Positions 4,492 to 29,582 of a stretch of DNA of 37,533 bases are shown here, piece after piece. The translations under genes and the position numbers were made by a program. Within the stretch, counting starts at the first letter, position 1; each line of letters opens with the position of its first letter. Origin of the DNA: Candidatus Caccovicinus merdipullorum (GTDB lineage Bacteria; Bacillota; Clostridia; Lachnospirales; Lachnospiraceae); NCBI GenBank assembly GCA_018715905.1, contig DVKS01000195.1, positions 1 to 37,533 of the forward strand, in the 5' to 3' direction. The notes under the pieces are model-generated. The model was not told the DNA's origin. It did no database searches and saw nothing but the letters and a program-made list of their open reading frames with translations.

Positions 4492-4505
4492 ATCTCGTAC
4501 AGAAA

Positions 4506-7301: not shown

Positions 7302-7350
7302 AGAAAAGCCGCCCTACTTAAGGACGGCTTAAATTAACCTCATAAACACG

Positions 7351-7372
7351 AAAAACCCTGATAAAATCAGGG
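7351..7372 (-). terminator. Rho-independent terminator downstream of tRNA-Thr
   Basis: Minus strand CCCTGATTTTATCAGGGTTTTT. Confidence 0.8.
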
Positions 7373-7384
7373 CTTCTCACAAAA

Positions 7385-7456
7385 GCTGCTGACGGGAATC
7401 GGACCCGTGACCTCCGCACTACCAATGCGACGCTCTACCGACTGAGCCACAGCAGC
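7385..7456 (-). tRNA. tRNA-Thr (anticodon GGT)
   Basis: Reverse complement GCTGCTGTGGCTCAGTCGGTAGAGCGTCGCATTGGTAGTGCGGAGGTCACGGGTCCGATTCCCGTCAGCAGC folds as a cloverleaf; acceptor GCTGCTG/CAGCAGC, anticodon loop TTGGTAG, GGTCCGATTC T-loop. Confidence 0.95.
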
Positions 7457-7617: not shown

Positions 7618-7736
7618 GAAATGCAAAGAATGTGCGGCGTTTTCGGCAGATGAGAAAAGAGCCGCAAAGAATCAGAGGGTGCCAGGGAGCCTGAAACAAG
7701 GATGTGGAAAGTGCAGCCGGCAGGGAGGAGACAGGG

Positions 7737-8945: not shown

Positions 8946-9023
8946 AGGATGGCCGCCCCCGGAGGCTTATAATGAAAGAAATCGAAAAGGGGGGAGGCAT
9001 GCTGGTTGAAAGGGAGAAAATTC

Positions 9024-11993
9024 ATGTTAAGAGGCAGGAATCTGCGTCAGCCTGGGGAGACCTTGATTCTGGGAGAGACAGAATACTGTGTGGAGGGGGT
9101 ACAGGGCCAGGGCGGAAGCGCTGTGGTTTATCGGGCCCGATATGAGGATTCGCTGAATCGGGGATGTTATCATCACGTTTTGATTAAGGAATTGTTTCCG
9201 TATCATCCCAAGGGATGGGTATACCGGGATGAGCAGGGGTGGATTCGGTGCTGTCCGGAGGGGGAAAATCTGATGGAGCAGTGCCGGAACCGCTTTTTCC
9301 AGGGAAACGCGGTGAACCTTAAGCTGTTAGAGGCGCTGCCGGAGAAGATATCAGGCAATTTAAATTCCTATGAGGCATATGGAACCTGCTATTCGGTGCT
9401 GTATGTCCATGGCGGCCAGGATCTGGAGCATTTCCTGGAAGGGGAGAAAGAGAGCTGGTCCCTTCTCCGGGCAGCTGAGGTAATGGAACAGATTCTGGAC
9501 GCTCTGGAGCCTTTTCATGAGAACGGTCTTCTCCACCTGGATATCAGTCCGGATAATATTCTGATGCTGCCGGGAAGGGCCATGCTGATTGATTACAACA
9601 GTGTCTGGCCGGAGAATCCGGGGGAGCAGGAGGAATTTTTTTTCAGTGAAAAAGAAGGGTATACTGCGCCTGAGGTGCGGCTTAAGGAAATTCGGGAAAT
9701 CGGGCCGGCCGCGGATCTTTACGGGGTCTGCGCGGTATTTTTTACCATGCTTACGGGAAGGCGTCTTACGCCGGAAGAGTCCATGGGAAAGGGACTGGAG
9801 CGGGCCTTCCCGAAAGACCTGGATATCTTTCGCGGTCAGCCGGAAACAGCCGCCTGGCAGACGGTGCGGATCATCAAAAAGGGGCTGCATCTGCTTCCAA
9901 GAAAACGGTATGGATCCGTGAATTCTCTGCGGGAAGATATTCAGGAGCTTCTTTTGCGGCTTCATGGCTGGGGGATCTCCCACAGCGCCTTGTGGGAAGG
10001 CAGCCTGCGGGAGTGGAAAAAAAGCCGGGACAGGGAGACACAAGACCTGGAGCGGGTTCTGATGCTGACCGATGGCCTGGAGGGTTCCGGAGGAAGGCGG
10101 GGCCAGAACCCGGGGAAACGGGCGGAAAAATGGAATGAGAGAGATTTTCTCCCCCTTTTGGAGCGGGGAGAATGCTTCCTTTTATATGGCGCGGGGGGAA
10201 TGGGCAAGACCCGTTTCCTTAAAATGCTGCTCAGGCAAAGCATGGCCCGATACAGCCCGGCAAAACCTGTTTTTCTCTACATTTCCCTGGCGGATTATCC
10301 GGAAGGCGGGGAGGAGTTACGGTATATTCGAAAGCAGATTCTGCGCAAGCTTATGTTTCTGGAAGGGGGCCAGGGGGTGGAGGAGGCGCTAACATGCCTG
10401 GATCAGCTTTTCTCCGAAGAAGAAGGTCCGGGAGCCGTCCTTCTTCTGGATGGGCTCAATGAGGCTGGCCCGCGGCGGCAGAATCTGTTAAAGGAAATTG
10501 AGGGGCTGGGGAGATTTTCGTTCCTGGGAATCCTGGTAACGGACCGCACAGATGGGGTGAAGGCATACGGCCTTTCCGGCTTTTGTCCGGCGCGCCTGAT
10601 GGAACTGACCAGGGATCAGGTGGAAGAGACCCTTCGCCGACGGCAGATCCCCTGTCCGGAAGAGAAGATGATGCGTCTTCTGGAAAATCCCATGATGCTG
10701 TGGCTGTACGGGCAGACGGCGGTGATGGACCGGGAATTGGGGAGAGAGCAGGAGGAGACCGAGGCAATGACCATGGAATCTCTGGCCGGGGGATATCTGG
10801 AGAGGCTGTGTGCCGGCCAGCTGCGGCTGTATTCCGGAGATCAGGCGCAGCAGCTGCGGCAGGATTATCTGATCCGCCATCTTCTTCCTGACATTGCCAG
10901 GGAAATGAAGCGGAAGAAACGGCCCCTCCTTACGCTGGAGGAACTCTACCGGCCGGTAAGGCAGAGCTATGAACGCTTAAGGAGCAAAGCCTTTTCCCTG
11001 GCGTTTCCCCAGTACATGGGAAAGTCCAGGCTGATGCTCCAGGGAATCGCCAGTGAAAGCGAGTGGTTCGACTACGCGGTATCGGAACAGCTTTTAGGAG
11101 CCCTGGATCTTCTTAGAATAAGCGGAAATGGAAATTACGGACTGATTCATGAAAATTTCGCCGACTGCCTGGCCGGACAGGCTAGGGAAAACCACAAAAG
11201 ACTTGCCCGGTACAGGCGAAGGGCAGGCGGGAAAAAGTTCCTGGCAGGAGCGGCCCTCCTTCTCCTGATCGGGGGAGGAGGCGCGGCGGCCTGGCATCAG
11301 TGGGGGCCCAAAACCTACAGCGCCCAGGAAAAGCTGGTGTTCAGGAACGCGGCCCAGCGGCTGATGATCAACCTGCAGGTGCTGGATATTCAGCTGATGA
11401 CCCAGGAAACCATCCTGGAGGAAGCCATGGACAGCGCTGTGCTGGAGGGAGAGCCTGAGCAGACCGCCATGTTTGCCCAGTCCATTGAGAGAAAACGCCA
11501 GGAGCTGTCTTCCCAGCTTTCCGTGGCTTCTGATGGCAGCCGCTGGGTTCTGGAATTAGAGGAGATGAACGGCTCTGTTCCTCTGGAAGAACTGCAGGAA
11601 CTTTATGCAAAGCCCTGGGAGATGGAGAGACTGATGAATGAGGCCCTTGGCTTTCTTGAGGAAGCCTTCTGCAGTCCGGACAGCCCTTATACCACCAGAG
11701 AAAAGCGGCTGCCTCTGGCAGAAGCTTATCAGAACTATCTGGATGCCTATGCAAGGGAGTGCTATGTGGAGCTGAATCTGGTTCTTTCTTCCATGGAACC
11801 GGAGGCGGCAGCCATGGTGCAGGAGGCAACAGCGGAAATGAGCGTGCTGAAGCAGTATATTCTCGCCTACCCCTTAAGCGGAGTGACCCAGGAGGAGATT
11901 CAGGCCCAGCTTACCGCTGCCCGGAATCAGAAAAAAGACGCGGCGGACGCCATGCGGCTTGTGAATTATCCTATGGAGGCAGCGGGATGGTGA
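9024..11993 (+). CDS. Ser/Thr protein kinase fused to NACHT/STAND-like P-loop NTPase, TM segment and C-terminal extracytoplasmic helical region
   Basis: Kinase motifs VQGQGGSAVVYRARY, VLIKELFP, LLHLDISPDNILML, LIDYNSVW, GYTAPEV; Walker A LLYGAGGMGKTRFLKMLL; Walker B GAVLLLDGLNEA; TM KFLAGAALLLLIGGGGAAAW. Confidence 0.85.
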   Translation: MLRGRNLRQPGETLILGETEYCVEGVQGQGGSAVVYRARYEDSLNRGCYHHVLIKELFPYHPKGWVYRDEQGWIRCCPEGENLMEQCRNRFFQGNAVNLKLLEALPEKISGNLNSYEAYGTCYSVLYVHGGQDLEHFLEGEKESWSLLRAAEVMEQILDALEPFHENGLLHLDISPDNILMLPGRAMLIDYNSVWPENPGEQEEFFFSEKEGYTAPEVRLKEIREIGPAADLYGVCAVFFTMLTGRRLTPEESMGKGLERAFPKDLDIFRGQPETAAWQTVRIIKKGLHLLPRKRYGSVNSLREDIQELLLRLHGWGISHSALWEGSLREWKKSRDRETQDLERVLMLTDGLEGSGGRRGQNPGKRAEKWNERDFLPLLERGECFLLYGAGGMGKTRFLKMLLRQSMARYSPAKPVFLYISLADYPEGGEELRYIRKQILRKLMFLEGGQGVEEALTCLDQLFSEEEGPGAVLLLDGLNEAGPRRQNLLKEIEGLGRFSFLGILVTDRTDGVKAYGLSGFCPARLMELTRDQVEETLRRRQIPCPEEKMMRLLENPMMLWLYGQTAVMDRELGREQEETEAMTMESLAGGYLERLCAGQLRLYSGDQAQQLRQDYLIRHLLPDIAREMKRKKRPLLTLEELYRPVRQSYERLRSKAFSLAFPQYMGKSRLMLQGIASESEWFDYAVSEQLLGALDLLRISGNGNYGLIHENFADCLAGQARENHKRLARYRRRAGGKKFLAGAALLLLIGGGGAAAWHQWGPKTYSAQEKLVFRNAAQRLMINLQVLDIQLMTQETILEEAMDSAVLEGEPEQTAMFAQSIERKRQELSSQLSVASDGSRWVLELEEMNGSVPLEELQELYAKPWEMERLMNEALGFLEEAFCSPDSPYTTREKRLPLAEAYQNYLDAYARECYVELNLVLSSMEPEAAAMVQEATAEMSVLKQYILAYPLSGVTQEEIQAQLTAARNQKKDAADAMRLVNYPMEAAGW

Positions 11994-12062
11994 TGGCCGG
12001 ATACCAGAACCGGGGAGAAGAGCAGGAGGAAAAGAAAGAGGAGAAGGGAAGGAAGCAAAGGC

Positions 12063-12848
12063 ATGAAAAAAGGGAGAGGAACAGGGCTTAAGGGCCGCCG
12101 GAAACTGGCTGCGGTCCTTTTGGGGCTGCTGATCTTATCTGCCTGCAAAGCCGGGGAAGACGCCTTTTCCCGGCAGAAGGAAATTGTGGATGAGACAGCC
12201 CGGATTGTACTTTTGATGGATCAGGACAGCCGGGACTATGATCTGGCCCTTCAGGAGATCGGCAGATACCTTGATGAGCCGGATCCGGAAATTCTTGCTG
12301 CCGTTCAGCAAAAGGTTCAGGAATCCACGGCGGAGTTTCAGACCCGGCAGGATCAGGCGGAGTCTTATGAGATGACGGAGGATTTCGCGGACATTCTTGT
12401 GGAGAACCATATTGACCCGGAAGAATACCAGATGAATGCCGATTCACGGATCAGCAGCCTGGGCAGATTTATCACCCGGCTGCAGACCATGGACACATAT
12501 CTGGAAATGGTCTCCATCCTTCCGGGAACCGTGGAGGATGACCTGCGATTTATGTATGAATATAACCTGGAGGAGCAGCGGATCATCCGCGGATACCAGT
12601 ACTGTGCGGTGAATTACTGGTTTGCTTCCTGGGAAGGGGAAGGCGCGGAGTACGCCAAGGAGCAGATCGCGGATCAGCTGGAGTCTTTCGTGCTGGAGGA
12701 ATCGATCTGGGAGACCAGTCAGGAAGGGGCGGAACAGAGGATGGAGGTATATTTGAATCAGCTGGAGGAGCAGATTTCCGAATTGACAGATTATATCGGC
12801 GAAGCGCAGGAAGAATTATATGAAATGGAAAAGGAAAACAGTCCGTAA
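12063..12848 (+). CDS. Predicted lipoprotein
   Basis: Basic N-terminus, hydrophobic LAAVLLGLLILSAC with lipobox LSAC; acidic helical mature region. Confidence 0.75.
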   Translation: MKKGRGTGLKGRRKLAAVLLGLLILSACKAGEDAFSRQKEIVDETARIVLLMDQDSRDYDLALQEIGRYLDEPDPEILAAVQQKVQESTAEFQTRQDQAESYEMTEDFADILVENHIDPEEYQMNADSRISSLGRFITRLQTMDTYLEMVSILPGTVEDDLRFMYEYNLEEQRIIRGYQYCAVNYWFASWEGEGAEYAKEQIADQLESFVLEESIWETSQEGAEQRMEVYLNQLEEQISELTDYIGEAQEELYEMEKENSP

Positions 12849-12854
12849 AGAACG

Positions 12855-12894
12855 AGGGCTGGCAAAAAGTTATAAGCTTTTTGCCAGCCCTTTC
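12855..12894. terminator. Bidirectional terminator between convergent lipoprotein and XRE genes
   Basis: Perfect 14-bp stem GGGCTGGCAAAAAG / CTTTTTGCCAGCCC with TTTC tract on +; overlaps the 3' coding end of the XRE gene. Confidence 0.75.
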
Positions 12895-13193
12895 ATGTAG
12901 GCCAGAGCCAGTTTTTTATCCTCCGCAGAAAGGGTGGTGAAAAGGGACAGGCATTCAGACTGTTCCCTGGTAAGGCTGGGGCGTTCAGGATCCGGATCAA
13001 AAAATTCCGAGATGGAGATGCCGAATCCTCCGCACAGCTTCTGCAGAGTTAAAAGAGAAGGCTGGTTCTGTTTATTCATCATGGTGTTTAATGTGGAATA
13101 GGTAATTCCGGACGCTTTTGCCAGATGGTAGTAAGACCAGCCCCGTTCTGCGCAGAGTTCCCGGATGCGTTCGAGGGAATTAAATTCTGTCAT
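12870..13193 (-). CDS. XRE-family HTH regulator, 107 aa
   Basis: MTEFNSLERIRELCAERGWSYYHLAKASGITYSTLNTMMNKQNQPSLLTLQKLCGGFGISISEFFDP; RBS AAAGGAGGGGGTTGC before ATG at 13193. Confidence 0.9.
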   Translation of the reverse strand: MTEFNSLERIRELCAERGWSYYHLAKASGITYSTLNTMMNKQNQPSLLTLQKLCGGFGISISEFFDPDPERPSLTREQSECLSLFTTLSAEDKKLALAYMKGLAKSL

Positions 13194-13456
13194 GCAACCC
13201 CCTCCTTTGAGATTGTTTTTGGCGGGTTCCAAGGCCGGAAACCCTGGTATCATCATATCCGAATTGAGAAAAAACGTACAGATATTGAAAACCGTTATGG
13301 AAATATAACGTAAAATCGTTGCAAAGGAAATAAGTTGCAGTTTTTTAAAAAAAGTAAGGTAGACTATCAGCAGCAGGAGAAATCCTCCGCAGTCAGAAGT
13401 GAACAGAATTCTGCGGTTTGCGGTCAATTGTTCATTGTCATTATGACGAAAAAACG

Positions 13457-13485
13457 TTGTAATTATGACTTAATTTTGATATAAT
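13457..13485 (+). promoter_or_regulatory. Sigma-A-type promoter for the Hsp70/AAA+ operon
   Basis: TTGTAA - 17 nt - TATAAT upstream of CDS 13591. Confidence 0.6.
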
Positions 13486-13590
13486 GATATGGTAAAAAAT
13501 TACAAATGCCGAAACACTTCTGCTGCGGGCGAAAAATCCATTGGAACCAAGGAAAGGGCGGAGGCCCACATTGTTAAGGAGGTAAGCAGG

Positions 13591-14712
13591 ATGAGAACAT
13601 TTACGAAGGAACAAAGTCAGGCATTGTTAAACCAGGCGGAAGAAATGATGAAGCACATGGAGGAAGGCCAGAGTGTAAGGGACGTGATGGCCAGGATTTA
13701 TGTGGAAAATCTGGATGAAAAGACCATGAGCCAGGGACAGATGATGGCGGATGCCATCATTCAGGGGATAAAGGATTTTGATTCCGATTACCAGGAGGCC
13801 CAGGGTGATCTGGACCGTTTTATCCGGAAATTCCAGGATAAGGCCGATGACGGAAAAAGCCGTGAGGAACGCTGCAATTACTGGCTGAAAACAGCCGCCG
13901 CCGTTTCCGCAGCAGCTCTGGCCATGAAAGAGGGAGGAATTGACGAAGAAGAGATCATGCGGGAAATCGAAGCCCTTGCTGTGACAAAAGAAGAAGCCAC
14001 GCCGGAACGGGAAAAAGAACTGCGGGATCAGGCCAGAGAAGCCATTAAGCAGTCGGGAATTATGCTGGGAGCCCTGGCTGCCCAGGCGGAAGAACTGGAG
14101 GGGGTTTCCCCGGATGAAGCGGCGGAAATGCTTCTTGTTTTCGGAAACCAGGAGATGGAGTACCGGGCTGTGGCAGCCATGATCGCGTACACGAAGATCA
14201 AGAAGGGTGAGTTTGAAAATGTGCCGGTGGAAATGACTGCCGCCCAGGTAGCCTGCATCGTATGCGCGGAAGTGGAACAGACCCGGATCGCGGAAGCGGT
14301 GGGAAAGGGCAGTCTGGCGGTGGATGTGGCGGCAGCTCTTCTTAACGCTCTGGGCGCGGTGGTTATTGCTGCCTTTGCCATCAGTCTTGCCGCGGCGGGG
14401 CTGGAATTTGTTTTGAACCTTTTTCCTCTTATCCTGGCGGTTCCTGGCTGCATGGTGGTGGGAGCTTTGGTCACTCACGGGGTCTGCCGGGCCTGGAAGC
14501 TCTGGAAAAAAGACAGCCGCAGAATCGCGGAAGGTACGGCCGCGGCAGTTCGATTTGTGCTGGACGGCATAAAGGCGATTCTTTCCTTTGCCGCAGGAAC
14601 CCTGATTCCGGGAATCGTTAAGAAGGCAGAGGAAATTTATGCCCGGGTGCGCAGCAGGGGACAGAAGGCGGAACAGGTGCAGGTTCTGGAAGAAGCGGGA
14701 GCTCAGTTATGA
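13591..14712 (+). CDS. Hypothetical helical protein with C-terminal hydrophobic segments
   Basis: Internal ATG with RBS AAGGAGG; hydrophobic LLNALGAVVIAAFAISLAAAGLEFVLNLFPLILAVPGCMVVGALV. Confidence 0.75.
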   Translation: MRTFTKEQSQALLNQAEEMMKHMEEGQSVRDVMARIYVENLDEKTMSQGQMMADAIIQGIKDFDSDYQEAQGDLDRFIRKFQDKADDGKSREERCNYWLKTAAAVSAAALAMKEGGIDEEEIMREIEALAVTKEEATPEREKELRDQAREAIKQSGIMLGALAAQAEELEGVSPDEAAEMLLVFGNQEMEYRAVAAMIAYTKIKKGEFENVPVEMTAAQVACIVCAEVEQTRIAEAVGKGSLAVDVAAALLNALGAVVIAAFAISLAAAGLEFVLNLFPLILAVPGCMVVGALVTHGVCRAWKLWKKDSRRIAEGTAAAVRFVLDGIKAILSFAAGTLIPGIVKKAEEIYARVRSRGQKAEQVQVLEEAGAQL

Positions 14713-16214
14713 TCCGGGTGCTGAAGATTCAGCAGACGCCGGTTTTAAATTTCCGGGATCTGCAGAAACGGTTCTGGCCGGCGGAGATTTTCAGACAGAT
14801 GGAGATTTTTGCGGAATTTGCTTCCGTTCACTGCCGTCCCATCAGAACTCAGCTGGCGGACAGAGAAAGTGGAAGAAAATACTCGGCGGAGTATTTTACC
14901 AAGGATTTCTGGATGGGGATTCTTCACCGGAGCCGGTGGCCGGGAGAGGAAAATCTTATGGATTGTTTCATGGCGGCGGCAAAGGCGGAATTGGGCATTC
15001 GGGGAAACGATGAAGAAAGGGATCCGGAGGATTCGCGGCAGGATGAAGAGAGAGAAGCCGGCATGAAACGGGAGGTTCGTGACGGCGGACTGGAGGAAAA
15101 GCTTGCCTTTATTGCCAGAGAAAGGGGCAGTGAGGCGGATTATGGAGAAGTTATCCGGCTGCTGGCAATCTGTGAACTGTCAGAAGTGGATCCGCGGAGG
15201 CTGGAGCCCTGGGCCTGGAAGAATCCGGAGACGGCAGAAAGCGGGGAGGAACCAGAGGAGATCAGCCTGTTTCCTTATGAGAATACGGTGCAGCTGATGA
15301 CCGGCGGCCGCGTTCGGAAATTCTGGTATCATGACGATGACGTTCTTGCTCCAGGGGCCAGAATCCATACGGTGAAAGTGGAAGCCAGGGGGAGCGCCAA
15401 TCAATACGCGGTTCTGCGGATTGAGCTGTACAGCGAAAAAACCGGAAAGTGTGTCCAGAGCCTGTCCTTAAAGAGCGGGGAGTATCGGTACTGCAGCGTC
15501 TCACGGGAGAGAATTATCAAATTTCTGCCGGATGTATGCGTCAGCGATGAGTTGTGCCTAATGCGGCAGAGATACAGTCAGAAGGAACTTACGGTCATCC
15601 CCAAAGACGGGGAATCCTGGACATTAAAAACGGAGGAAGTCACAAGCTTTGCCCCGGGAAGCAGACAGCAGGGATTTCTGCTGATCCAGGGAGGAAAGGT
15701 AAATTCGCGATTTTACAGACCGGCGGAAGACTACTTTATCCGGCTTAAGATGGATATGCTCACTCTCCCGGCAGTGGAAGCCCTGATTACGGAAACCGGC
15801 TATGCCGTTTTGCTGGAGGACGGTTCTGTGGCCTCCAGCCGGCCGGAGACATGGAAAAAAGGAATCGTCTCCCTTTCCATGGAGGGGAGGGCTCCTGTTC
15901 TTTCCGGGGCAGACAGTCTAAGCTGCAGGGAGGCAGCCGTTTCCTTGTCAGGAAAAAGCCTTGCCTTTTTGGGAAACGAGGAAAATAAGCATGAAGTTCT
16001 GTTCTCGGGAAAAGGCAGGAACTTTTCTATCCGGGAAAGAGACGGACGCAGGGAAGTATGGCTGGAAGAGGGGAGGAAAGTTGATGTGGAAATTAAGACA
16101 GGGCAGATTCTCAGGAGATGCCAGGCAAAGCCGGATGGAGGGCGAGGGTATGGTCCAGAGAAAAGATCTGGCGAACATACAGCGATGGGAGAAGGGAATA
16201 GAAGCTGCTCTTGA
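14709..16214 (+). CDS. Hypothetical protein, 501 aa
   Basis: Long ORF, ATGA overlap with previous gene; C-terminal half possibly beta-rich. Confidence 0.75.
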   Translation: MIRVLKIQQTPVLNFRDLQKRFWPAEIFRQMEIFAEFASVHCRPIRTQLADRESGRKYSAEYFTKDFWMGILHRSRWPGEENLMDCFMAAAKAELGIRGNDEERDPEDSRQDEEREAGMKREVRDGGLEEKLAFIARERGSEADYGEVIRLLAICELSEVDPRRLEPWAWKNPETAESGEEPEEISLFPYENTVQLMTGGRVRKFWYHDDDVLAPGARIHTVKVEARGSANQYAVLRIELYSEKTGKCVQSLSLKSGEYRYCSVSRERIIKFLPDVCVSDELCLMRQRYSQKELTVIPKDGESWTLKTEEVTSFAPGSRQQGFLLIQGGKVNSRFYRPAEDYFIRLKMDMLTLPAVEALITETGYAVLLEDGSVASSRPETWKKGIVSLSMEGRAPVLSGADSLSCREAAVSLSGKSLAFLGNEENKHEVLFSGKGRNFSIRERDGRREVWLEEGRKVDVEIKTGQILRRCQAKPDGGRGYGPEKRSGEHTAMGEGNRSCS

Positions 16215-16974
16215 CCTGCGGCTGAAATTTGATTTCGGCCAGGTGCTGAAAAGGGCCTTTGAGGAATGGAGGGAGATTCCGGCCCTTACCCGGCAAAGTG
16301 AGGCGGCGGACATTGTCCTTTCTGCCTTTTATCAGCAGGGAAAAATCAGCGATTATCTGGAGAAACTGGAAGCCTTCGCGGACCGGATCCCATCCATGAG
16401 CAGCCAGGAGACGGTACGGAATCAGGGCTACTATAATTATCTGTTTTTCCTGCGTCAGTTTGTGGAGGACATGAAGCCCAAATATGAAGCCGCCAGGGAG
16501 GCGGCAGAAAAAGCAGAACCGGCTGAAACCACCCCTGCCAATGTGCTGCGCTTCATCAGCAGTGAATGTGCTTCTGTGGCAGCCCTTAAGGACCTGCCAA
16601 AGGCCAGGGAGGCGGTAAGAAGACTTAAGGATTCTCTTGTTCTGGGAAAGGCCAGGACTTCATTAAATATTCAGGACCTGGCTTTCGTTTCGGAAAGCAT
16701 GGAGCTTTTGGAAATGGCGGTGAGAAGCGGGGATACCAGAGAACTGGAAGAGGCAGAGGAAAATCTGATGCAGAGAAAACGCGCCCTGAAAGAAAACATC
16801 GACAAGGGAAGCGGGCTGTATGACATCATCAAGGCAGAAATGACGGAGGAGTGGTTTGAGGCACTTAATCCGGAATCGGACCGCTGCCTTGTGATGGATA
16901 TGCCGAAAGAGAAGATCCGCCAGCTTTACATCGAAAAAATCAGCCGCATACGGAAGAAGACAAATGGACTGTAA
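16150..16974 (+). CDS. Hypothetical helical protein, about 274 aa
   Basis: MVQRKDLANIQRWEKGIEAALDLRLKFDFGQVLKRAFEEW...; co-directional, overlapping previous gene end. Confidence 0.7.
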   Translation: MVQRKDLANIQRWEKGIEAALDLRLKFDFGQVLKRAFEEWREIPALTRQSEAADIVLSAFYQQGKISDYLEKLEAFADRIPSMSSQETVRNQGYYNYLFFLRQFVEDMKPKYEAAREAAEKAEPAETTPANVLRFISSECASVAALKDLPKAREAVRRLKDSLVLGKARTSLNIQDLAFVSESMELLEMAVRSGDTRELEEAEENLMQRKRALKENIDKGSGLYDIIKAEMTEEWFEALNPESDRCLVMDMPKEKIRQLYIEKISRIRKKTNGL

Positions 16975-16996
16975 TCGTCCGGGGAGGTACAGAAAA

Positions 16997-19057
16997 ATGG
17001 AGAGAAAGACCATTGGAATTGATCTGGGGCACTGCGAAACGGCGATGGCGTTTCCCAGACAGCCTGATGCAAATGACAGCAGATATGAGGTCAGGAGACT
17101 GGTGGGAGAAAAGAAGGATCAGGTAGTGGCGACCCAGCTTATCCTTACCAATGAACAGATGAAAAAGCTGTCCGGACATAAACGGCCGGAATATTCCCTT
17201 CTTTCCGGTCTGGGAGAGATCCGGATTGGAAATAAGCTCCCGGCCTATGTCCCGGATGGAGAAAAATTCTGTTATTTTAAGGTGCCGCCGAAATATTTTG
17301 ACCGTCCTTACGGAAATACGGAATGTGCAAAAGAGTGCGGCATCACCCACGGAATGCTGATGGCATGCTTTGCCTTTGCTCTGGTCAGAAACATTTTCCT
17401 GTACAACGTGGGGGACCTGAGTGAAAACGACCGAAAAGAAACGGATCTGCTCATCGGCTGTCCTACCACCAGGGACTGGACCTCTCAGGAGGCCCAGACA
17501 GAATATGGGGCGCTGATTAAGAAGGCCACCAATGTTCATGCCGTCCGCATCGTGCCGGAATCCAGAGCAGCCATGTTCAGCAGCGTAGAAAATGAAAAGA
17601 TTAAGGTTTCTGCCCTGAAAGGCGCTGTGGTCTTTGACTTTGGCTCATCGACCGCGGACTGTACATATATGCTCTTAGGCCGGAAAATGATTGAATTCAG
17701 CTGGGGGCTGGGGGCCTCGGAGATCGAACGCCAGATGACCATGGCGGCATACCAGAAGGCCGTGGAGACAAACGGCGCCTTTCATGCCGCCATGACTTCC
17801 ATAGCAGACGTGGAAGACGAACTTCGGACGGCTAAGGAAAGCTATTTTGATCACCGTTTTCCGCCCAAGGGCCATCCGATCATCTGCAGTTTTGAACGTG
17901 AAGAGGATGGAATGACCGTAGATCAGATGATTCGGATCGATGATCCGTTCATGAAGCAGGTTACAGCGGAAAGACCTATCCATGTTCTCTGCGACAGCAA
18001 GAATACTGTGTCCGGTTCCTGGGAAGAACTCTGCCTGGCTTTTTTTCGGGAGGCCAGGGAGCGGATCAGCCAGGCATCTTACACTTTTGTGGACGCTTCC
18101 GGAAAGAAACAGACGAAACAATGTGAGATCGACACCATTGTGCTCACCGGAGGTGCCAGCCGGATGGAATTTATTGCTGAATTATGCCGGGAAGCTTTTC
18201 CTGAGGCGAAGATTCAGAAAGAAGATAATCCTTCTCACACCGTGTCCAATGGTCTGGGATGGGTGGCGGTATCCGATGCTAATCTGGAATCCTGCAGAAA
18301 CGAGGCGCGGAAGCTGATCGATTCCCGAAAATCCTGCAGCATCACGGCTCTGAAGGAAAATCTGGAGTCAAAGATCTTCGATTTAATCTGCCAGACCGCG
18401 GAAAAATGCACTCAGGAGTGGGCCGACGCGCCGGGAGATAATCTGTCTCTCCAGGATCTGCAGAAGAAGATTACCGCGGAGATGAACAGAGCGGAAACCA
18501 AAAATAAGATTAACGCGGCCTGCGCGCAGATTATTACGGAATGGAAAAAGGAGCTGTCCTCAGCCATGGAAGAGGCGGTGAACGGACAGGTAGGCAGGCT
18601 CTATTCGGAAAAGGTGGCCAGAGGGCTGATGATCCCGACGGATGTGTGGGAGACTCTCCAGGCGGGAAATATGAAGCTGGACCAGATGGATGTTTCCAAT
18701 ATCTTAAAAGGCATTGATGTTTCCTCCATTGCCAGGCAGATTGCCCAGTGGGCCATTATCGCGGCAGCCAGCGGCGTAGGCGCGATTTTCGGCCCCGTTG
18801 GAGCAACCATTGGATTCTTGGCCGGTCTGGTAGCGGCCGCCTTTATCGGCGATGATAAGATGGAAGAAAAACGGCCCAGGAAAAAACGCCAGAACGCGGC
18901 AGCTACGGTGAAGAAGAAGATCCGGGAATCCAAAGCCCAGCTGATGCAGGAGTTTCAGAAAGATTTTTCCCGGTTTGAATCGGAATATTCCAAACATGTG
19001 GATCAGTCCTTAACGGCGGCTTTTGAGATTGTATCCTTAAAACGATTTTCCATGTAA
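16997..19057 (+). CDS. Hsp70/DnaK-like (actin-fold) ATPase with divergent C-terminus
   Basis: Phosphate-1 MERKTIGIDLGHCETAMAF, phosphate-2 GAVVFDFGSSTADCTYML, adenosine motif TIVLTGGASRMEFI; C-terminal glycine-zipper AAASGVGAIFGPVGATIGFLAGLVAAAFIG. Confidence 0.85.
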   Translation: MERKTIGIDLGHCETAMAFPRQPDANDSRYEVRRLVGEKKDQVVATQLILTNEQMKKLSGHKRPEYSLLSGLGEIRIGNKLPAYVPDGEKFCYFKVPPKYFDRPYGNTECAKECGITHGMLMACFAFALVRNIFLYNVGDLSENDRKETDLLIGCPTTRDWTSQEAQTEYGALIKKATNVHAVRIVPESRAAMFSSVENEKIKVSALKGAVVFDFGSSTADCTYMLLGRKMIEFSWGLGASEIERQMTMAAYQKAVETNGAFHAAMTSIADVEDELRTAKESYFDHRFPPKGHPIICSFEREEDGMTVDQMIRIDDPFMKQVTAERPIHVLCDSKNTVSGSWEELCLAFFREARERISQASYTFVDASGKKQTKQCEIDTIVLTGGASRMEFIAELCREAFPEAKIQKEDNPSHTVSNGLGWVAVSDANLESCRNEARKLIDSRKSCSITALKENLESKIFDLICQTAEKCTQEWADAPGDNLSLQDLQKKITAEMNRAETKNKINAACAQIITEWKKELSSAMEEAVNGQVGRLYSEKVARGLMIPTDVWETLQAGNMKLDQMDVSNILKGIDVSSIARQIAQWAIIAAASGVGAIFGPVGATIGFLAGLVAAAFIGDDKMEEKRPRKKRQNAAATVKKKIRESKAQLMQEFQKDFSRFESEYSKHVDQSLTAAFEIVSLKRFSM

Positions 19058-19090
19058 ACTTATTGGGGTCAGCGGGGAAAGGAGAGAGAG

Positions 19091-21058
19091 ATGGCGGACA
19101 GTGTACAGAAACGGATTCTTGGGCAGTGCAGAAACGCCCTTCTGGGGGGAGTGCCCATCCTTTATATCAAAACGGATTCCCATATTTTGATTCAGAAGCT
19201 GCTTCTGGATGAGACATCTCCCCTGGTGGTTCTGTTAAGCAATGGAGGACGGAAGGGGACGGAGGAGCAAAGGGAGCTGAAATATATGCGTCCTATTTAT
19301 GAGCTGGAAAATCCTCAGGACAGGCAGCTTCGATATTGCTTAAACTACCGGAATTCCCTCCCGGAGATGGATTCCGGCGGGCTGTACCGGGAGCTTTATG
19401 CCAGCCCCAGGGATATGGCCAATGAACGGATGACTGGCCCCTTTTTATGGTCGGTAAACATGCCGGATGATCCTCAGGAATTAAAGCGGATATACCGCGG
19501 GCTGGAGCAGTACGTAACGGCTCACGAGGACGAAAACCATCCCCAGTACCCGGTGCTGCAGCGGAGCGTGGTTATCTTGTATTCCTCCCAGGTGTTTCTC
19601 TCCCCCATGCTGAGAACTTACACGGAGTTTATCGATGTGGGATATCCCGATGAGGAGGAGATCCGGGAGCTGATTAAATCGGAATCCGGCGGGGACCGGA
19701 ATCTGATCGAAAACGAGGAATATCTGTCGGCTCTGTGTACGGATTTTCTGGGATTTACCACAGAGGAAATCGTCATGACCATGCAGAGGATCATGGCTGC
19801 TTCCTCCCTGCAGCGTTCTGATGAGGCGGAAGGAATCATCAGGGAGCATAAGCGCCAGAAAATGCAGGGAGGCATTCTGGAACAATGTGACCCGGAGGGG
19901 AATATCGGCGGAATGAATCAGTTCAGAGCGTGGCTGATGAAGCAGGTAAAACCCTTAAAGTATTCTGCTTCTTACATGAGAAAGAACGGAACGCCCCCGC
20001 CGAAAGGGGTGCTCCTGTGCGGAATTCCGGGATGCGGAAAATCCGAGGCAGCCAAGTTTACTGCCCAGATCTTAAATCTTCCCCTGCTGAAAATGGATAT
20101 TGGAAGCCTGATGGATAAATATCAGGGCGTTTCTGAACAGAGGATGCGGGATGCGCTGAAAATGGCAGAGGCCATGGCCCCCTGCGTCCTGTGGATCGAT
20201 GAACTGGAGAAAGGATTCAGCGGCGCCGGTTCCAACGGAGATTCTTCCTCCTTTAAGCGGATGTTCGGTTATCTGCTGGGGTGGATGCAGGATAATCAGA
20301 AGCCCTGCTTCATCTTTGCCACTGCCAATGATATCGGCGGTCTTCCCAAGGAATTTTTCCGGAGCGGACGATTTGACGGGCTGTACGCGGTATACCTGCC
20401 TACCGCCGCGGAGTGCGTCAGCATTTTTAAGTCCTGCATGGAAAGAATCGAAAAAAATATGGCCAGAGCCCGGCACTGCAGGAGAGAGGAGGCAGTGATT
20501 TTTTCCCCGTCCTGTTATGAGGATAATATGCTGCGGCGTCTGGTGAATGATACTTTGGTCCTTCCGGATAAAAGTCCCAGAATGATCATCGGATCCGACA
20601 TTCAGAAAGCGGTGAATCTGGCCATGGGGAGACTGTTCAACGAAACCAGGATAAACGGCGAAGCCTGGGACAGGGCCCTGCGTCAGGTGATTGGCTCCGG
20701 GGATTTCAGCACCTTCGGAGACGGCGAGGAAAACAGGGACAGCATCGCGGTCAGTTACTGCAGAATGCTGCGGAAGGGATTTATTCCTACGTCGGATCAC
20801 GTTCTTTTTCGGAAAGAGGATTATCATGTGGAATTCGCGGAGGAATATGAACGGTTAAAACGGATGTCCACCGTCTCCATGAGCGATGAGGAATTAAAGC
20901 AGCATAAAGAGCGGCTGAGGCAGTTTGAAATTTTGCAGGACAGCGGCCGGCAGTTTGCGGACCCTTATGATGCTTCCGTGTATCATTTTTTGAGAAACCG
21001 GATTAACCAGATGGCGGCGCTGCTGGAAAGGCGGGAGAGGGAACTGCTGCTTCGCTGA
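19091..21058 (+). CDS. AAA+ ATPase, Ycf46-like
   Basis: GTPPPKGVLLCGIPGCGKSEAAKFTA, CVLWIDELEKGFSG, FIFATANDIGGLPKEFFRSGRFDGLYAVYLP; N-terminal ALLGGVPILYIKTDSHILIQKLL. Confidence 0.9.
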   Translation: MADSVQKRILGQCRNALLGGVPILYIKTDSHILIQKLLLDETSPLVVLLSNGGRKGTEEQRELKYMRPIYELENPQDRQLRYCLNYRNSLPEMDSGGLYRELYASPRDMANERMTGPFLWSVNMPDDPQELKRIYRGLEQYVTAHEDENHPQYPVLQRSVVILYSSQVFLSPMLRTYTEFIDVGYPDEEEIRELIKSESGGDRNLIENEEYLSALCTDFLGFTTEEIVMTMQRIMAASSLQRSDEAEGIIREHKRQKMQGGILEQCDPEGNIGGMNQFRAWLMKQVKPLKYSASYMRKNGTPPPKGVLLCGIPGCGKSEAAKFTAQILNLPLLKMDIGSLMDKYQGVSEQRMRDALKMAEAMAPCVLWIDELEKGFSGAGSNGDSSSFKRMFGYLLGWMQDNQKPCFIFATANDIGGLPKEFFRSGRFDGLYAVYLPTAAECVSIFKSCMERIEKNMARARHCRREEAVIFSPSCYEDNMLRRLVNDTLVLPDKSPRMIIGSDIQKAVNLAMGRLFNETRINGEAWDRALRQVIGSGDFSTFGDGEENRDSIAVSYCRMLRKGFIPTSDHVLFRKEDYHVEFAEEYERLKRMSTVSMSDEELKQHKERLRQFEILQDSGRQFADPYDASVYHFLRNRINQMAALLERRERELLLR

Positions 21059-21094
21059 TGGGGAAAGACAAAGAAGGAAGGAGAGGTGACAGGA

Positions 21095-21745
21095 ATGGTT
21101 GCAGAGACCATAATCGTCCTGGGAATCGCCGCCGCGGTGCAGATTCTGTTTAGTGTAATCGGAGGACTGATTAAACTGTGGGGAAGCCAGGAAATGCCGG
21201 AAACGATTCAGGCCGAGATGAGCGATACGGACCAGGCAAAAATCCGGGATACGCAGCGGCTGATGGCGGACTGCTTCGGAGACAATGTAACAGAACGCAT
21301 CCGAAACGCAAGCAACAAAGAGAGGATCGCGCTGATGGCGGATTTCGCGGAGCGGCTGGCCAGGGAGTATGATCTGGATATTGAGGTTGACGTTACGGTC
21401 AGCAATCTCCAAAACTGCGGAGCTTATAACTGGAAGGAAAAGAAGGCTGTGTTCAACATCGCCCTTCTGATGGTTGACGGCGATCATGAACAGTTCGCCT
21501 ATTGCGTCCGGGAAACTCTGGATACCATTATTCATGAGCTCCGTCATGCAGTTCAGCATAAGAGCATAGAACAGCCTGGATTTTGGAATGTGGAGGATGA
21601 GGTGAGAAACGCCTGGGCCAATAATATGGCTTCCGGCAATTATATCCGCCCGGAGGTGGATATGCGGGCTTATGCCATGCAGCCCATTGAACGGGACGCG
21701 GTTACCTTTGCCGCTTTAGTGATGAAGGGGGTGGATGAACAATGA
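21095..21745 (+). CDS. Membrane-anchored putative zinc metallopeptidase
   Basis: N-terminal TM ETIIVLGIAAAVQILFSVIGGLIKLW; DTIIHELRHAVQHKS contains HExxH. Confidence 0.7.
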   Translation: MVAETIIVLGIAAAVQILFSVIGGLIKLWGSQEMPETIQAEMSDTDQAKIRDTQRLMADCFGDNVTERIRNASNKERIALMADFAERLAREYDLDIEVDVTVSNLQNCGAYNWKEKKAVFNIALLMVDGDHEQFAYCVRETLDTIIHELRHAVQHKSIEQPGFWNVEDEVRNAWANNMASGNYIRPEVDMRAYAMQPIERDAVTFAALVMKGVDEQ

Positions 21746-22140
21746 GAATTTCGTTTAAGGAGTTTCACCGTTTCCTCAGCGAAGACGATTATACGGATAA
21801 GGAGATCAGACATTTATTCCATGCGGTGAAAGCCATGGATCAGGAAAGCCGGCGCTGGGTTCTGCGCTGGTTTAATCAGGGCAGCTACCCGGATCAGGAG
21901 ATTGAAGGGGTTACGGCGAAGTATCTGGTGGAAACCTGCGGATATCGTCCCCTGAACGCGCTGATTATCCTGGACTGGCTGAAAGCGGATCCCCAGGCGG
22001 CGAAATACTTTGTCCTGAAGATCCCATCCACCATTCCGCCGGGAGAGGCGATCGGTGAGGAGATCGAAAAAATCATGGAGGCAGAGGGAATACCGGTCCA
22101 AAAGGCCGAGGAGGAAGAGGAGCTGGGGGATATTTTATAG
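21742..22140 (+). CDS. Hypothetical protein, 132 aa
   Basis: ATGA overlap with preceding gene; same operon. Confidence 0.75.
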   Translation: MRISFKEFHRFLSEDDYTDKEIRHLFHAVKAMDQESRRWVLRWFNQGSYPDQEIEGVTAKYLVETCGYRPLNALIILDWLKADPQAAKYFVLKIPSTIPPGEAIGEEIEKIMEAEGIPVQKAEEEEELGDIL

Positions 22141-22172: not shown

Positions 22173-22212
22173 CAGGGGCCGGTACGACTCAAACGAGTCA
22201 CACCGGCCCCTG
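22173..22212. terminator. Long near-perfect hairpin at operon end (terminator or structured RNA)
   Basis: CAGGGGCCGGTACGACTC-AAAC-GAGTCACACCGGCCCCTG. Confidence 0.6.
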
Positions 22213-24490: not shown

Positions 24491-25573
24491 ATGACCACAA
24501 AAGATATCACAGAGCAGACAAGAGATCGAATTCGCGGCTGTCTGATCGGCGGCGCAGTGGGCGATGCCCTGGGTTATCCGGTGGAATTTTTGTCCTACAG
24601 CCAGATCATTCATTCTTTTGGGGAAAAAGGGATAACAGAGTATGTTCTGGATGTTCAGGAAGGAAAGGCAGTTATTTCGGATGACACGCAGATGACCCTG
24701 TTTACGGCGGAGGGATTGTTAAACAGCGCGGGCAAGAAAAAGGAGGAAATTCCTTATGAAGTTTATCGGTCTTATCTGAACTGGTACCAGACGCAGAGGG
24801 GCAGGCGGAAGCCGGAGATGGGAAAAGGAAAGGCCGGGGCAGGCAATCCCGGCAGAGACAATTCCCGGCTGATGGAAATTCCGGAATTATATGTGTGCAG
24901 GGCGCCGGGGAATACTTGCCTGAGCGCGCTTTCCTCCGGCCGCATGGGGGATATGGAAGAATCCATCAACATGAGCAAGGGCTGCGGAGGCATTATGCGG
25001 GCAGCTCCGGCGGCCATTTACCGCAAGCCGGATGAGACCTTTACCAGGAAGGAAATTGATCTGCTGGGAGCCCGGCTGGCGGCGATTACCCACGGCCATC
25101 CTCTGGGGTATATTCCGGCGGCGGTACTTGTACATATTGTGAACATTGGCGTGTACGGCGGCAGCCAGCCGGGAATGGGACTGGCGGATGCGGTGAAAGA
25201 GGCCGTGGAGACAGCCCGGGAGCTGTTTCCGGAAATCGGATTTATGCCGAAGCTGGCTGCCCTTGTGGACCGAGCTGCAAAGCTTGCGGGAAATGAAAAG
25301 GAAGACATTGAAAATATCCGTGAACTGGGCGAAGGATGGGTGGCCGAGGAAACTCTGGCCATTGCCGTTTACTGCAGTATCCGGTATTGCGATAATTTTT
25401 CTAAAGGGGTGGCTGCGGCAGTAAATCACAGCGGGGATAGCGATTCGACGGGAGCAGTCACCGGGAATATTCTGGGCGCGTGGCTTGGACTTGAAGGAAT
25501 CGAGGAGAAATGGCTGAGAGATCTGGAACTGCGGGAGCTGATTTTAACCATGGCAGACAGCCTTTGCACCTGA
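24491..25573 (+). CDS. ADP-ribosylglycohydrolase family protein (DraG/ARH-like)
   Basis: RGCLIGGAVGDALGYPVEF, ISDDTQMTLFTAEGLL, GCGGIMRAAPAA, THGHPLGYIPAAVL, NHSGDSDSTGAVTGNILGAWLG. Confidence 0.93.
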   Translation: MTTKDITEQTRDRIRGCLIGGAVGDALGYPVEFLSYSQIIHSFGEKGITEYVLDVQEGKAVISDDTQMTLFTAEGLLNSAGKKKEEIPYEVYRSYLNWYQTQRGRRKPEMGKGKAGAGNPGRDNSRLMEIPELYVCRAPGNTCLSALSSGRMGDMEESINMSKGCGGIMRAAPAAIYRKPDETFTRKEIDLLGARLAAITHGHPLGYIPAAVLVHIVNIGVYGGSQPGMGLADAVKEAVETARELFPEIGFMPKLAALVDRAAKLAGNEKEDIENIRELGEGWVAEETLAIAVYCSIRYCDNFSKGVAAAVNHSGDSDSTGAVTGNILGAWLGLEGIEEKWLRDLELRELILTMADSLCT

Positions 25574-25631
25574 GAAGATCAGACGGATAGGCGGGAATTT
25601 GACAGAAGGAGAGAGTTGAGGAGGCGGAGCC

Positions 25632-26840
25632 ATGAAGCTGACCATTCATTTGGAAAAGCCGGGCTGCGGGGACGGGATGTATGAGATTCGCGCCAGGGGA
25701 TATCTGGCGGCAGAATTATTCTGGAGTAATGAAAAGGGAATTCTGGAAGAATATACTGCTTTTGCCTGTATCCCTTTGGGACTGGACGGAGAGGGAGTTT
25801 TCCGTTTTCAGGGCGGACGGGGGATTCCGCCGGAAGCTTCCTCGGTGACCGTCCGGGCGGTGGACGGCAGCCTGAAGAAATGGGAGGAGGCAAGCGCCAT
25901 CATTCCCATGGATTTTCGCAGTCCTTTGCAGGATGCGGAACAGAAGATCTGTGTCATGAGCGACCTCCATCTTTCCCGCCGGGCCGGGCGCCTGAAATGG
26001 GTGCTTAGACAGGGAAAGAAAGCGGATCTGGTGCTTTTGCTGGGAGATCTGGTAAATGACGGGCTGCCGGAGCAGTTTCGGCTGTTTTCCCGGTGCCTGG
26101 AGGAAGCGCTGCCGGATGTGCCGGTGCTGGCAGTGCCGGGAAATCACGATTTCCCCAGAAATCCTCTGCCCTTAGCTGGGGAGAAAAGAGGAGATTTTCG
26201 CGGGGTGTTTCAGCAGATGGCAGAAAGGGCAGGAAACCTTGGGATTCAGCTTAAGGCAGATCCCAGAGGCGGTTTCTGCGCCCGGGCAGGCAGGATCCAG
26301 GTGATCGGGCTTTATGGGGCATCCAACTGGCGCAGGCTGCGCCTGGAAAAAGATGGGCAGCTGGCGTTCTTGGAAAAGGAACTGGGGGAAAAGCAGGGGG
26401 AGGAGCCGGAAGAAAAGCTGGGAGAAAAACCAGAAGAAAAGCCATTCCTGCGCCTGATTCTCTGTCACGCGCCCCTGCTTGACCATAATCCCCAGCGGAG
26501 AAAGGGACAGTCTCAGCCTTACCTGGGCGGGGACCGTGCTTTGCAGAAATTGCTGGATGGCCAGGAGAACTTTCTGTTTCTTTCCGGGCACACCCACTTG
26601 TCCCCAAACCTGTATCAGGGAACCGTGGAGATTCTGCCGGGAAACCGGATTTATGCCAATGTGGGGAGTACCTGTCCCTGCGAGATGAAAGGGGAGGAGC
26701 CGCTGACTCTTAAGGAGTGGAGAGAGCCGGTGATGACAGAGCTGATCCTTGGGAGAAAAACTGCTTCGATCATTTCTCGGTCCCTGGTGACAGGAAAAGC
26801 GTTTCCCAGAGGATATTACCGTTTTAACCTTTTTTCATGA
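25632..26840 (+). CDS. Calcineurin-like metallophosphoesterase
   Basis: VMSDLHLSRR, LVLLLGDLVNDG, VPGNHDFP, LILCHAPL, FLSGHTHLSPN. Confidence 0.92.
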   Translation: MKLTIHLEKPGCGDGMYEIRARGYLAAELFWSNEKGILEEYTAFACIPLGLDGEGVFRFQGGRGIPPEASSVTVRAVDGSLKKWEEASAIIPMDFRSPLQDAEQKICVMSDLHLSRRAGRLKWVLRQGKKADLVLLLGDLVNDGLPEQFRLFSRCLEEALPDVPVLAVPGNHDFPRNPLPLAGEKRGDFRGVFQQMAERAGNLGIQLKADPRGGFCARAGRIQVIGLYGASNWRRLRLEKDGQLAFLEKELGEKQGEEPEEKLGEKPEEKPFLRLILCHAPLLDHNPQRRKGQSQPYLGGDRALQKLLDGQENFLFLSGHTHLSPNLYQGTVEILPGNRIYANVGSTCPCEMKGEEPLTLKEWREPVMTELILGRKTASIISRSLVTGKAFPRGYYRFNLFS

Positions 26841-26978
26841 GGGATGTTCTGGCACATTCAATGGGCAGAAGGAAGGCCTGTAGGAATAAGGGCTGGAAAA
26901 AGAGGGGGACAGAAGATATAATGGTGGCATCATTATAAGTCAGTATAGAAGACTACGGAAAGGCGGGAGATTGTGGTC

Positions 26979-27941: not shown

Positions 27942-27965
27942 TTTATTGGAAACCTTCATGAGTCG

Positions 27966-28006
27966 GCAGCCGGTGTTTGCGTGACAGCATTCCGGCTGCT
28001 TTTTTC
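27966..28006 (+). terminator. Rho-independent terminator after EcsC-like gene
   Basis: GCAGCCGG ... CCGGCTGC followed by TTTTTT. Confidence 0.75.
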
Positions 28007-28020
28007 TATATCACCAGGGC

Positions 28021-28075
28021 GGAAAAAACTTGAAGTTTTTTCATGACGCTGTGTTATCCTGAGAATACAAAGAGA
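28021..28075 (+). promoter_or_regulatory. Promoter-like element, copy 2
   Basis: GGAAAAAACTT-33 nt-ATACAAAGAGAT with extended -10-like TGTTATCCT. Confidence 0.5.
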
Positions 28076-28148
28076 TTACAACACCGCCTATCCGGCGGCA
28101 GAACTTTCAGAGAAAACGGATACACGAAAAAAGGAAGGAGAGGCAGTC

Positions 28149-29550: not shown

Positions 29551-29582
29551 GCCAGCCGACAAGGAGAAAGGAGTCATATCGA

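Follow-up and report, generated by a model that had tools for sequence, protein, structure and literature searches.

Seven tightly packed genes, here named A to G, are kept together as a rare yet clearly conserved set in gut Clostridia, and we give an even chance to the reading that their products form a single membrane-associated machine, which remodels proteins at the cost of ATP and includes its own zinc peptidase, the genes being an exchangeable accessory cassette beside the gene of an XRE repressor. They lie in a window of 37,533 nucleotides (the whole stretch of DNA analysed) from Candidatus Caccovicinus merdipullorum. A first-pass annotation had proposed a dedicated remodelling or proteolytic machine composed of chaperone, unfoldase and protease. 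A membrane-linked remodelling or proteolysis machine is still the most economical reading because of the co-occurrence of the genes, the rarity of this accessory operon, the intact AAA+ and peptidase sites and the lack of a match to any named system. The chaperone part of the proposal did not hold, since protein D lacks the substrate-binding domain SBD-beta, and proteolysis is possibly not obligatory.

Operon layout and conservation of the gene set

Genes A–G occupy positions 13591–22140 of the forward strand, with a candidate promoter 5' and a strong hairpin 3' of them. All seven co-directional open reading frames (ORFs) of the first-pass annotation are present in the window, with the tight spacing it described and with ATGA overlaps exactly at 14709 and 21742. 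As a small correction, C overlaps the end of B rather than starting after it. Gene A (13591..14712, 373 aa) belongs to a frame open from 13489, its start at 13591 being backed by homologues and a GGAGG. It is followed by B (14709..16214, 501 aa), C (from about 16150, or 16135 or 16084, to 16974; approximately 275 aa), D (16997..19057, 686 aa), E (19091..21058, 655 aa), F (21086..21745, 219 aa) and G (21742..22140, 132 aa), the last joined to F by an ATGA overlap. The candidate sigma-70 promoter (TTGTAA-N17-TATAAT with an extended -10 TG, 13457..13485, forward strand) is a consensus match only, and the region contains no more such matches than expected by chance; its position and the TG fit. 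On the same strand, a GC hairpin 3' of G (22173..22212, MFE -32.6 kcal/mol, z -8.6) is a candidate 3' end or terminator of the operon and is not followed by a long T tract.

Co-direction alone is weak evidence for an operon, since most of the stretch from 7.7 to 34.5 kb is co-directional, and a chance grouping of unrelated genes running in the same direction would account for that much. A gene-neighbourhood survey of 85,462 species genomes with protein D alone as bait yielded 16 loci, all in Clostridia. B and E are present at 16/16 of these loci, G at 15/16 and A, C and F at 14/16 each. The D proteins share mostly 23–50% identity among loci, and no flanking gene family is common to more than 3 of 15 loci. 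Since the genes are co-retained despite the divergence of D and the unshared flanks, we regard A–G as a selected unit; the recurrence of the same genes at 16 loci whose sequences have diverged and whose flanks are unrelated already refutes chance grouping, whose probability we consider negligible. The survey thus bears out the co-occurrence of the genes in other genomes. The operon is also accessory, as had been claimed: its distribution is patchy and rare, with only 2/11 genomes of the source genus carrying it.

Among close pairs of loci, A, B, D, E, F and G have dN/dS values well below 1, indicating purifying selection, while C and an additional gene, U, evolve faster (up to approximately 0.67). 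Gene order varies among loci (UBCDEFGA, UBCEDFGA), and some loci carry FG twice or D more than once. Locus L049 is otherwise nearly intact and retains G, F being absent, so that proteolysis may not be obligatory. The flanks of the other 14 loci scanned contain mostly housekeeping genes, and clear enrichment of known defence systems was not seen there. A phage or plasmid location of the operon was rejected: D is absent from the phage collection, plasmid records hold one remote relative (on a Calothrix plasmid) and IMG/VR one remote contig.

Proteins encoded by the operon

Protein D consists of an Hsp70-type ATPase domain (approximately residues 1-410) and an all-helical C-terminal domain (412-679; model pLDDT 86). 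By sequence the relation to HSP70 is distant (Pfam only E=0.04; profile against PDB 2.8e-6). By fold it is clear, as Foldseek relates the AlphaFold model to the nucleotide-binding domain (NBD) of Hsp70/BiP (E ~1e-11 to 2.4e-12, TM to target <=0.68), and the divergent Hsp70 of the first-pass annotation is thereby confirmed. D has an actin/Hsp70-type nucleotide-binding fold. Its catalytic residues D9, K95, E188, D214, D221 and GG385-386 are found in 18/18 family members and T219 in 17/18; K95 and E188 are equated with K70 and E171 of DnaK by position rather than by residue-level superposition. After residue 408 the model comprises essentially helices only, without a beta-sandwich substrate-binding domain, and a conserved hydrophobic interdomain linker motif was not found at the end of the NBD. 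For these two reasons D should not at present be called a chaperone, and a DnaK-type chaperone was rejected. Neither GrpE nor DnaJ Pfam matches were detected in the operon proteins, nor an HPD motif (J-domain) in any member of the A, B, C and G families. A hydrophobic stretch of D is missing in several members; present in only part of the family, it was dismissed as a general membrane hairpin.

It is quite improbable that D is instead a filament-forming, actin-like ATPase, the operon building a membrane-attached scaffold (compartment, secretion or segregation) with E and F as assembly and processing factors. Such a scaffold would agree with Pfam MreB_Mbl being matched by 8/18 D members as against three for HSP70, and with a C-terminus like that of LeoB/LeoBC (PADLOC, 3e-9), but the best 50 fold matches of the D model, those listed, belong to the Hsp70 family and not to MreB or ParM. 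A viral fold library likewise returned mainly ordinary Hsp70 matches for D.

Protein E is an AAA+ ATPase (Pfam AAA, 6.8e-25), as the first-pass annotation had stated, and its active site is intact: its Walker A and B, sensor and Arg residues are invariant in 15/15 members, the pore-loop aromatic being Y/F in only 11/15. Profile comparison against PDB retrieved the Cdc48/p97 D2 domain (6.5e-51) and Rix7 across both domains (residues 134-525). E combines an N-terminal domain without Walker A with one active AAA domain, the single Walker A lying at residue 311, and the name Ycf46/Cdc48-type is given on this architecture rather than on direct sequence comparison with Ycf46. Protein F is a gluzincin-like zinc peptidase (H-E-L-R-H; motif HExxHxxQ ... 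YxxQPxExDA) in which H150, E151, H154, Q157, Y196, Q199 and E202 are conserved in 13/13 members, E202 presumably being the third zinc ligand. With an intact peptidase active site and an N-terminal transmembrane (TM) segment at residues 9-27, followed by most of the positive charges, it is indeed the HExxH membrane protein that had been predicted; by hydropathy, 10/13 members have such a segment. DUF3920 is matched weakly by 10/13 members (22.4 bits for the F protein of the window, the curated gathering score being 27.3).

No curated family matches A, B, C or G, and profile searches of PDB gave no credible relative of these four proteins or of F. A is helical (family alignment of 14) and ends in a C-terminal hydrophobic TM segment or hairpin, TM segments being seen by hydropathy in 14/14 members. 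Its N-terminal domain is common to proteins encoded beside other Ycf46-like AAA genes at sister loci L062-L064 (hhalign 92%, E 7.9e-7). A glycine-zipper assignment of A was rejected, as GxxxG motifs do not cluster. B (alignment of 14) has a helical N-terminal and a beta-rich C-terminal part (AlphaFold pLDDT 79, pTM 0.56), with weak propeller-like Foldseek matches (TM ~0.16). C (alignment of 13) is mostly helical by sequence, is the fastest-evolving of A–G (dN/dS 0.38-0.67) and adjoins D in most loci; some members of its family carry an N-terminal TM segment. A relation of C to the membrane partners of about 300 aa encoded beside sister D genes was rejected (hhalign probability 0.3%). By eye the C-termini of these partners resemble GrpE, a likeness that Pfam does not back. 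G is a small protein (alignment of 13).

The cassette slot and its candidate regulator

In the source genus, a slot beside a conserved repressor gene holds A–G in one genome and quite different NTPase cassettes in related ones. New here is the observation that three congeneric genomes (G005, G006 and G007) carry other cassettes in the slot of A–G. In G006, a cassette of dynamin and HerA is bordered on the left by the genes that also precede A–G (HTH, kinase-NACHT, lipoprotein, XRE) and on the right by the same flank as in the window (EcsC, ADP-ribosylglycohydrolase ... RNA ligase, HD-Pnk). In G005 and G007 the same left flank is followed by dynamin, M48 peptidase, dynamin, kinase, PP2C, vWA, trypsin-FHA and dynamin. 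Two same-genus searches with flank genes turned up no cleanly empty site, since another cassette fills the slot in every congener with the left flank. G003, also of the source genus, has A–G without the kinase of the slot. The downstream RNA-repair/NAD block (24491-33543) was excluded from the system, since G006 has it without A–G and in G003 it lies on another contig.

The repressor gene (12873..13196, reverse strand) is divergent from the operon and encodes an XRE-family HTH protein of 107 aa (MTEFNSLERIREL...), a likely regulator. Orthologues with 73-84% identity occupy the same place in G005, G006 and G007 (tblastn). The gene is slot-specific, being absent beside the operon in L043-L058, and in other genomes the operon is accompanied by U, a different HTH-like gene. 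A palindrome RACG-W6-CGTY occurs twice between the XRE gene and the operon: candidate operator 1 (AACGTAAAATCGTT, 13307..13320) on the XRE promoter side and candidate operator 2 (GACGAAAAAACGTT, 13445..13458) overlapping the -35 box of the operon promoter, which starts at 13457. RACGWWWWWWCGTY is found only twice in the window, a count reached by 0/100 dinucleotide shuffles, and the whole 3 Mb genome has three sites, the third within a coding frame. G006 also has two such candidate sites, and in both genomes the pair lies in the gap between XRE gene and cassette. Judged from these sites, the XRE protein probably controls the cassette.

Proposed working and comparison with known systems

The XRE protein would bind the palindromes at its own promoter and at the -35 box of the operon and thereby hold the cassette at a low level until something induces it. 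D, of Hsp70 type in its ATPase but lacking a peptide-binding domain, would switch with ATP and ADP and move or assemble its own helical C-terminal domain, with C, by its position, as a putative partner. E, as a Cdc48/Ycf46-type hexamer, may recognise A through the N-terminal domain of A and thread or pull substrates through its pore. A and F would reside in the cytoplasmic membrane, the active site of F probably on the cytoplasmic side, where E may hand substrates to F, or F may cleave A, D or another target; B and G could serve as scaffold or adaptor. The most likely role of A–G is perhaps in a conflict or stress response at the membrane, a functional niche that it would share with the cassettes of dynamin, peptidase and kinase genes in the slot of sister genomes. 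Points against this explanation are the mostly housekeeping flanks without clear defence enrichment, the lack of any known nuclease or toxin-type effector among A–G, the absence of F in L049, a pore-loop aromatic of E in only 11/15 members and the partial hydrophobic stretch of D; further ones are the absence of XRE beside the operon elsewhere and the G003 operon lacking the slot's kinase.

More specifically, A–G might be an anti-phage system in which E or D, once activated by phage, converts A into a form that damages membranes while F serves as the protease that activates or quenches the response, a possibility that we hold only tentatively. The rare, patchy distribution (2/11 genomes in the genus) would fit, as would the swap with dynamin, kinase, PP2C, vWA and trypsin cassettes, which resemble the GTPase-centred conflict systems of PMC7159879, the phage resistance known for a bacterial dynamin (PMC8844932), and the sharing of the N-terminal domain of A with glycine-zipper proteins beside Ycf46-like AAA genes (compare the SpoVK-type pair of PMC11090510). 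However, A itself lacks the glycine zipper, defence-island enrichment is absent at 14 loci, PADLOC fits A–G only by AAA-domain and LeoB C-terminal matches, and phage records lack D altogether, plasmid records nearly so. Somewhat doubtful is an envelope or protein-quality-control machine, an FtsH-like kit for stress tolerance rather than conflict, in which E and F degrade damaged membrane proteins delivered by D and C. An AAA protein with a membrane zinc peptidase facing the cytoplasm follows the logic of FtsH, and most loci have metabolic flanks, but a stress-housekeeping module would be expected to be widespread, whereas A–G is rare, patchy and duplicated, FtsH models match E through the AAA domain only, and F can be missing, as at L049.

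It is unlikely that the remodelling machine represents a so far undescribed kind of immune machine bound to the membrane, with a chaperone-domain-less Hsp70-type ATPase taking the place of the dynamin GTPase as conformational motor and working with a Cdc48-like unfoldase and a zinc peptidase, in a repressor-controlled, cassette-swapping slot.

If the proposed explanation of A–G is right, Hsp70-type ATPase domains would also serve bacterial conflict or stress cassettes as motors that are not chaperones, and the four unannotated families A, B, C and G would obtain a common context. One XRE protein and one palindrome might govern interchangeable cassettes, whose inducer and function could be compared in parallel within a single genus.

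PADLOC, NCBIfam, Pfam and paper searches gave no named system matching A–G, in agreement with the first-pass annotation, which had recognised no named defence or stress system, and no publication describing the operon was found. PADLOC models fit by no more than the AAA-domain and LeoB C-terminal matches. The GTPase-centred, NTP-dependent conflict systems (Kaur et al. 2020, PMC7159879) are operons combining NTPases, a subset with an HSP70-domain protein without peptide-binding domain and related classes with peptidases. A–G likewise mixes NTPases, such an HSP70-domain protein and a peptidase, and the alternative slot cassettes (dynamin, kinase, PP2C, vWA, trypsin) resemble this class. In contrast, A–G lacks TRAFAC GTPase, tubulin, GrpE and DnaJ (no Pfam matches), E is Ycf46/Cdc48-like instead of MoxR AAA, and A, B, C and G are not among the components described in the available text of that paper; GTPases of this type occur in the alternative slot cassettes, not in A–G.

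The IetAS anti-phage system also encodes an ATPase with a protease, but E reaches 50.6 bits where the NCBIfam IetA equivalog requires 510 and has an extra N-terminal domain, and A–G carries a zinc peptidase, no serine-protease domain having been found in it. FtsH offers a functional analogy as AAA unfoldase with membrane zinc peptidase, although in A–G the parts are separate proteins, no M41 domain is matched, E has no membrane segment and it reaches 54 bits against a cutoff of 600 for FtsH_fam, by its AAA part only. Residues 429-674 of D match C-terminal parts of LeoB (2.9e-9) from the bacterial dynamin system LeoABC, whereas the ATPase domain of D is Hsp70-type, not a GTPase, and A–G has no LeoA match. 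Extended Type III-A CoCoNuT operons contain a SpoVK-type AAA and glycine-zipper pair (PMC11090510), which A–G resembles in a Cdc48-group AAA protein with only the C-terminal ATPase site intact and a neighbour with hydrophobic C-terminus. Unlike CoCoNuT, A–G is without McrB/McrC (no Pfam or PADLOC match to McrB GTPase or McrC homologues of CoCoNuT or McrBC Type IV restriction), vWA and HEPN, and A is without glycine zipper and nuclease-like middle domain. The sister loci L062-L064 look close to this SpoVK-type pair.

Conservation of the A-G genes as a unit

The seven co-directional ORFs A to G (13591-22140, + strand) encode an Hsp70-type ATPase (D), an AAA+ ATPase (E), a membrane zinc peptidase (F) and four proteins without a curated family. 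The positions given for all seven ORFs in the first-pass annotation held on re-checking of the window, except that family alignments let C start at about 16150, within the 3' end of B; by the same alignments A starts at 13591 and D at 16997. A promoter-like candidate, TTGTAA-N17-TATAAT with an extended -10, lies at 13457-13485 and a hairpin 3' of G at 22173-22212 (-32.6 kcal/mol, z -8.6).

A two-pattern scan of 85,462 species genomes with D alone as bait revealed 16 loci, exclusively in Clostridia (Lachnospiraceae, Oscillospiraceae, Clostridium sp.). The genes, which had been proposed to form one machine, are conserved as a unit: six-frame HMM searches found B and E in 16/16 loci, G in 15/16 and A, C and F in 14/16 each, one locus (L056) being cut by a contig end and the loci being partly non-independent (L047, L048 and L053 are closely related, L052 and L058 are from the same genome). 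Gene orders are ABCDEFG, BCDEFG-A or BC-ED-FG-A, with FG, D, C or A duplicated in some loci. An additional HTH-like gene, U, comes first in most loci (12/16) and is absent from the window. No flanking family was common to more than three of the 15 loci compared (169 flanking ORFs). Comparisons of close loci give dN/dS values of 0.09-0.35 (D), 0.12-0.14 (E) and 0.16-0.39 (F); of the genes A to G, C evolves fastest (0.38-0.67). The system is rare. Among 392 genomes of the order, the D profile had matches in 9, for the most part distant sister forms, and among 299 of a phylum sample in 1; two of 11 genomes of the genus carry the operon. A literature search covering few subscription papers found no described system with this gene set, and "undescribed" is meant in that sense; PMC7159879 and PMC11090510 concern related yet distinct systems.

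Predicted properties of the gene products

ATPase and peptidase motifs are intact. E combines a Cdc48/p97 D2-like AAA domain (6.5e-51) with an N-terminal domain devoid of a Walker motif; its catalytic residues are invariant and the pore-loop aromatic is present in 11/15. F carries HExxHxxQ and an invariant distal E202. By hydropathy, most F members have an N-terminal TM with positive charges mostly C-terminal to it, and the catalytic domain thus probably lies in the cytoplasm. In L043 the F-G pair is tandemly duplicated (12026-14250), HExxH being intact in both copies.

The chaperone role previously ascribed to D is not supported. In the AlphaFold model (18-row alignment, pLDDT 86) residues ~1-410 match Hsp70/BiP nucleotide-binding domains with catalytic residues kept. 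The predicted remainder is helical and has no beta-sandwich, and therefore the chaperone peptide site is missing; as modelled, D is an Hsp70-type domain without the chaperone domain. By sequence alone, D members match MreB (8/18) and HSP70 (3/18) weakly. Sister Hsp70-like proteins pair with ~300-aa TM proteins (L060, L020, L068, L069 and L046, 16244-19137), and the C-termini of some of these, judged by eye, resemble GrpE; in L068 a HerA-like gene comes next, and a sister form occurs also on a Calothrix plasmid.

All 14 members of the A family end in a C-terminal region with one hydrophobic segment or two (hydropathy). The N-terminal ~76 residues of A recur at the N-terminus of glycine-zipper proteins of ~520 aa, the genes of which directly adjoin Ycf46-like AAA genes (L062 11123-12682; L063 1718-3271; L064 2611-4179); since the same domain occurs beside such AAA genes, it may be the AAA-facing part of A. 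Besides their strong glycine zipper, the ~520-aa proteins have a middle part that by eye is PD-(D/E)xK-like, with QxK, and is probably inactive. B has a helical and a beta-rich part, its propeller-like fold matches (TM-scores ~0.16) being trustworthy no further than "beta-repeat". Relatives of C and G were looked for and none were found.

A slot with exchanged cassettes

The flanks are more informative on the operon than its own sequence. On the left lie genes for HTH (7704), kinase-NACHT (9006), lipoprotein (12063) and XRE (12873). In the congener G006, both flanks are kept at 50-87% protein identity, the right one partly reordered locally; common to both genomes there are EcsC, ADP-ribosylglycohydrolase, phosphoesterase, HD, methyltransferase, NMNAT-NADAR, RNA ligase and HD-Pnk. 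This two-sided synteny argues against an assembly or contamination artefact of the draft genome. G006 lacks A-G; its flanks enclose, among other genes, those for a dynamin GTPase of 869 aa and a HerA-like ATPase of 1044 aa. G005 and G007 share the left flank, after which come genes for dynamin, M48 peptidase, dynamin, protein kinase, PP2C, vWA, trypsin-FHA and dynamin (domains assigned on G007, G005 matched by gene order). Thus a single chromosomal position next to the XRE gene accommodates three NTPase cassettes that are unrelated to one another, and is a swap slot. Two of the three, A-G and that of G005/G007, encode peptidases.

The three-gene unit at 7704-12848 encodes an HTH-like protein, a Ser/Thr kinase-NACHT-like NTPase fusion (995 aa, with a hydrophobic segment) and a lipoprotein-like protein; kept beside the same XRE gene in G005, G006 and G007, it is possibly a fixed part of the slot. 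The right-flank genes named, together with vWA, make up an RNA-repair and NAD/ADP-ribose block (24491-34514) that occurs independently of A-G. Replication-type genes, a sigma factor, HTH and a tyrosine integrase that adjoins tRNA-Thr (7384-7456, -) occupy 1-7456, apparently an integrated element ending before the operon region.

Candidate operator and possible role

Comparison of XRE-cassette gaps yielded the palindrome RACG-W6-CGTY, with candidate operators on the XRE side (13307-13320) and over the operon -35 box (13445-13458). The window holds exactly two copies versus a mean of 0.01 in shuffles, a count that is no independent test as the pattern derives from these very sites. The source genome has one further copy, within a coding frame; G006 has two in the matching gap and four in all, G005 and G007 one each in the gap, and other congeners tested a background of 2-5 per genome. 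We favour the palindrome as an operator candidate because it recurs in congeners with different cassettes.

XRE may repress the operon, E would act on A, and F would cleave a substrate of the complex, presumably in conflict or stress. The other loci show no defence-island enrichment, which keeps a conflict role on its own well below an even chance; our tentative leaning towards it comes from the company in the slot and the AAA/glycine-zipper kinship.
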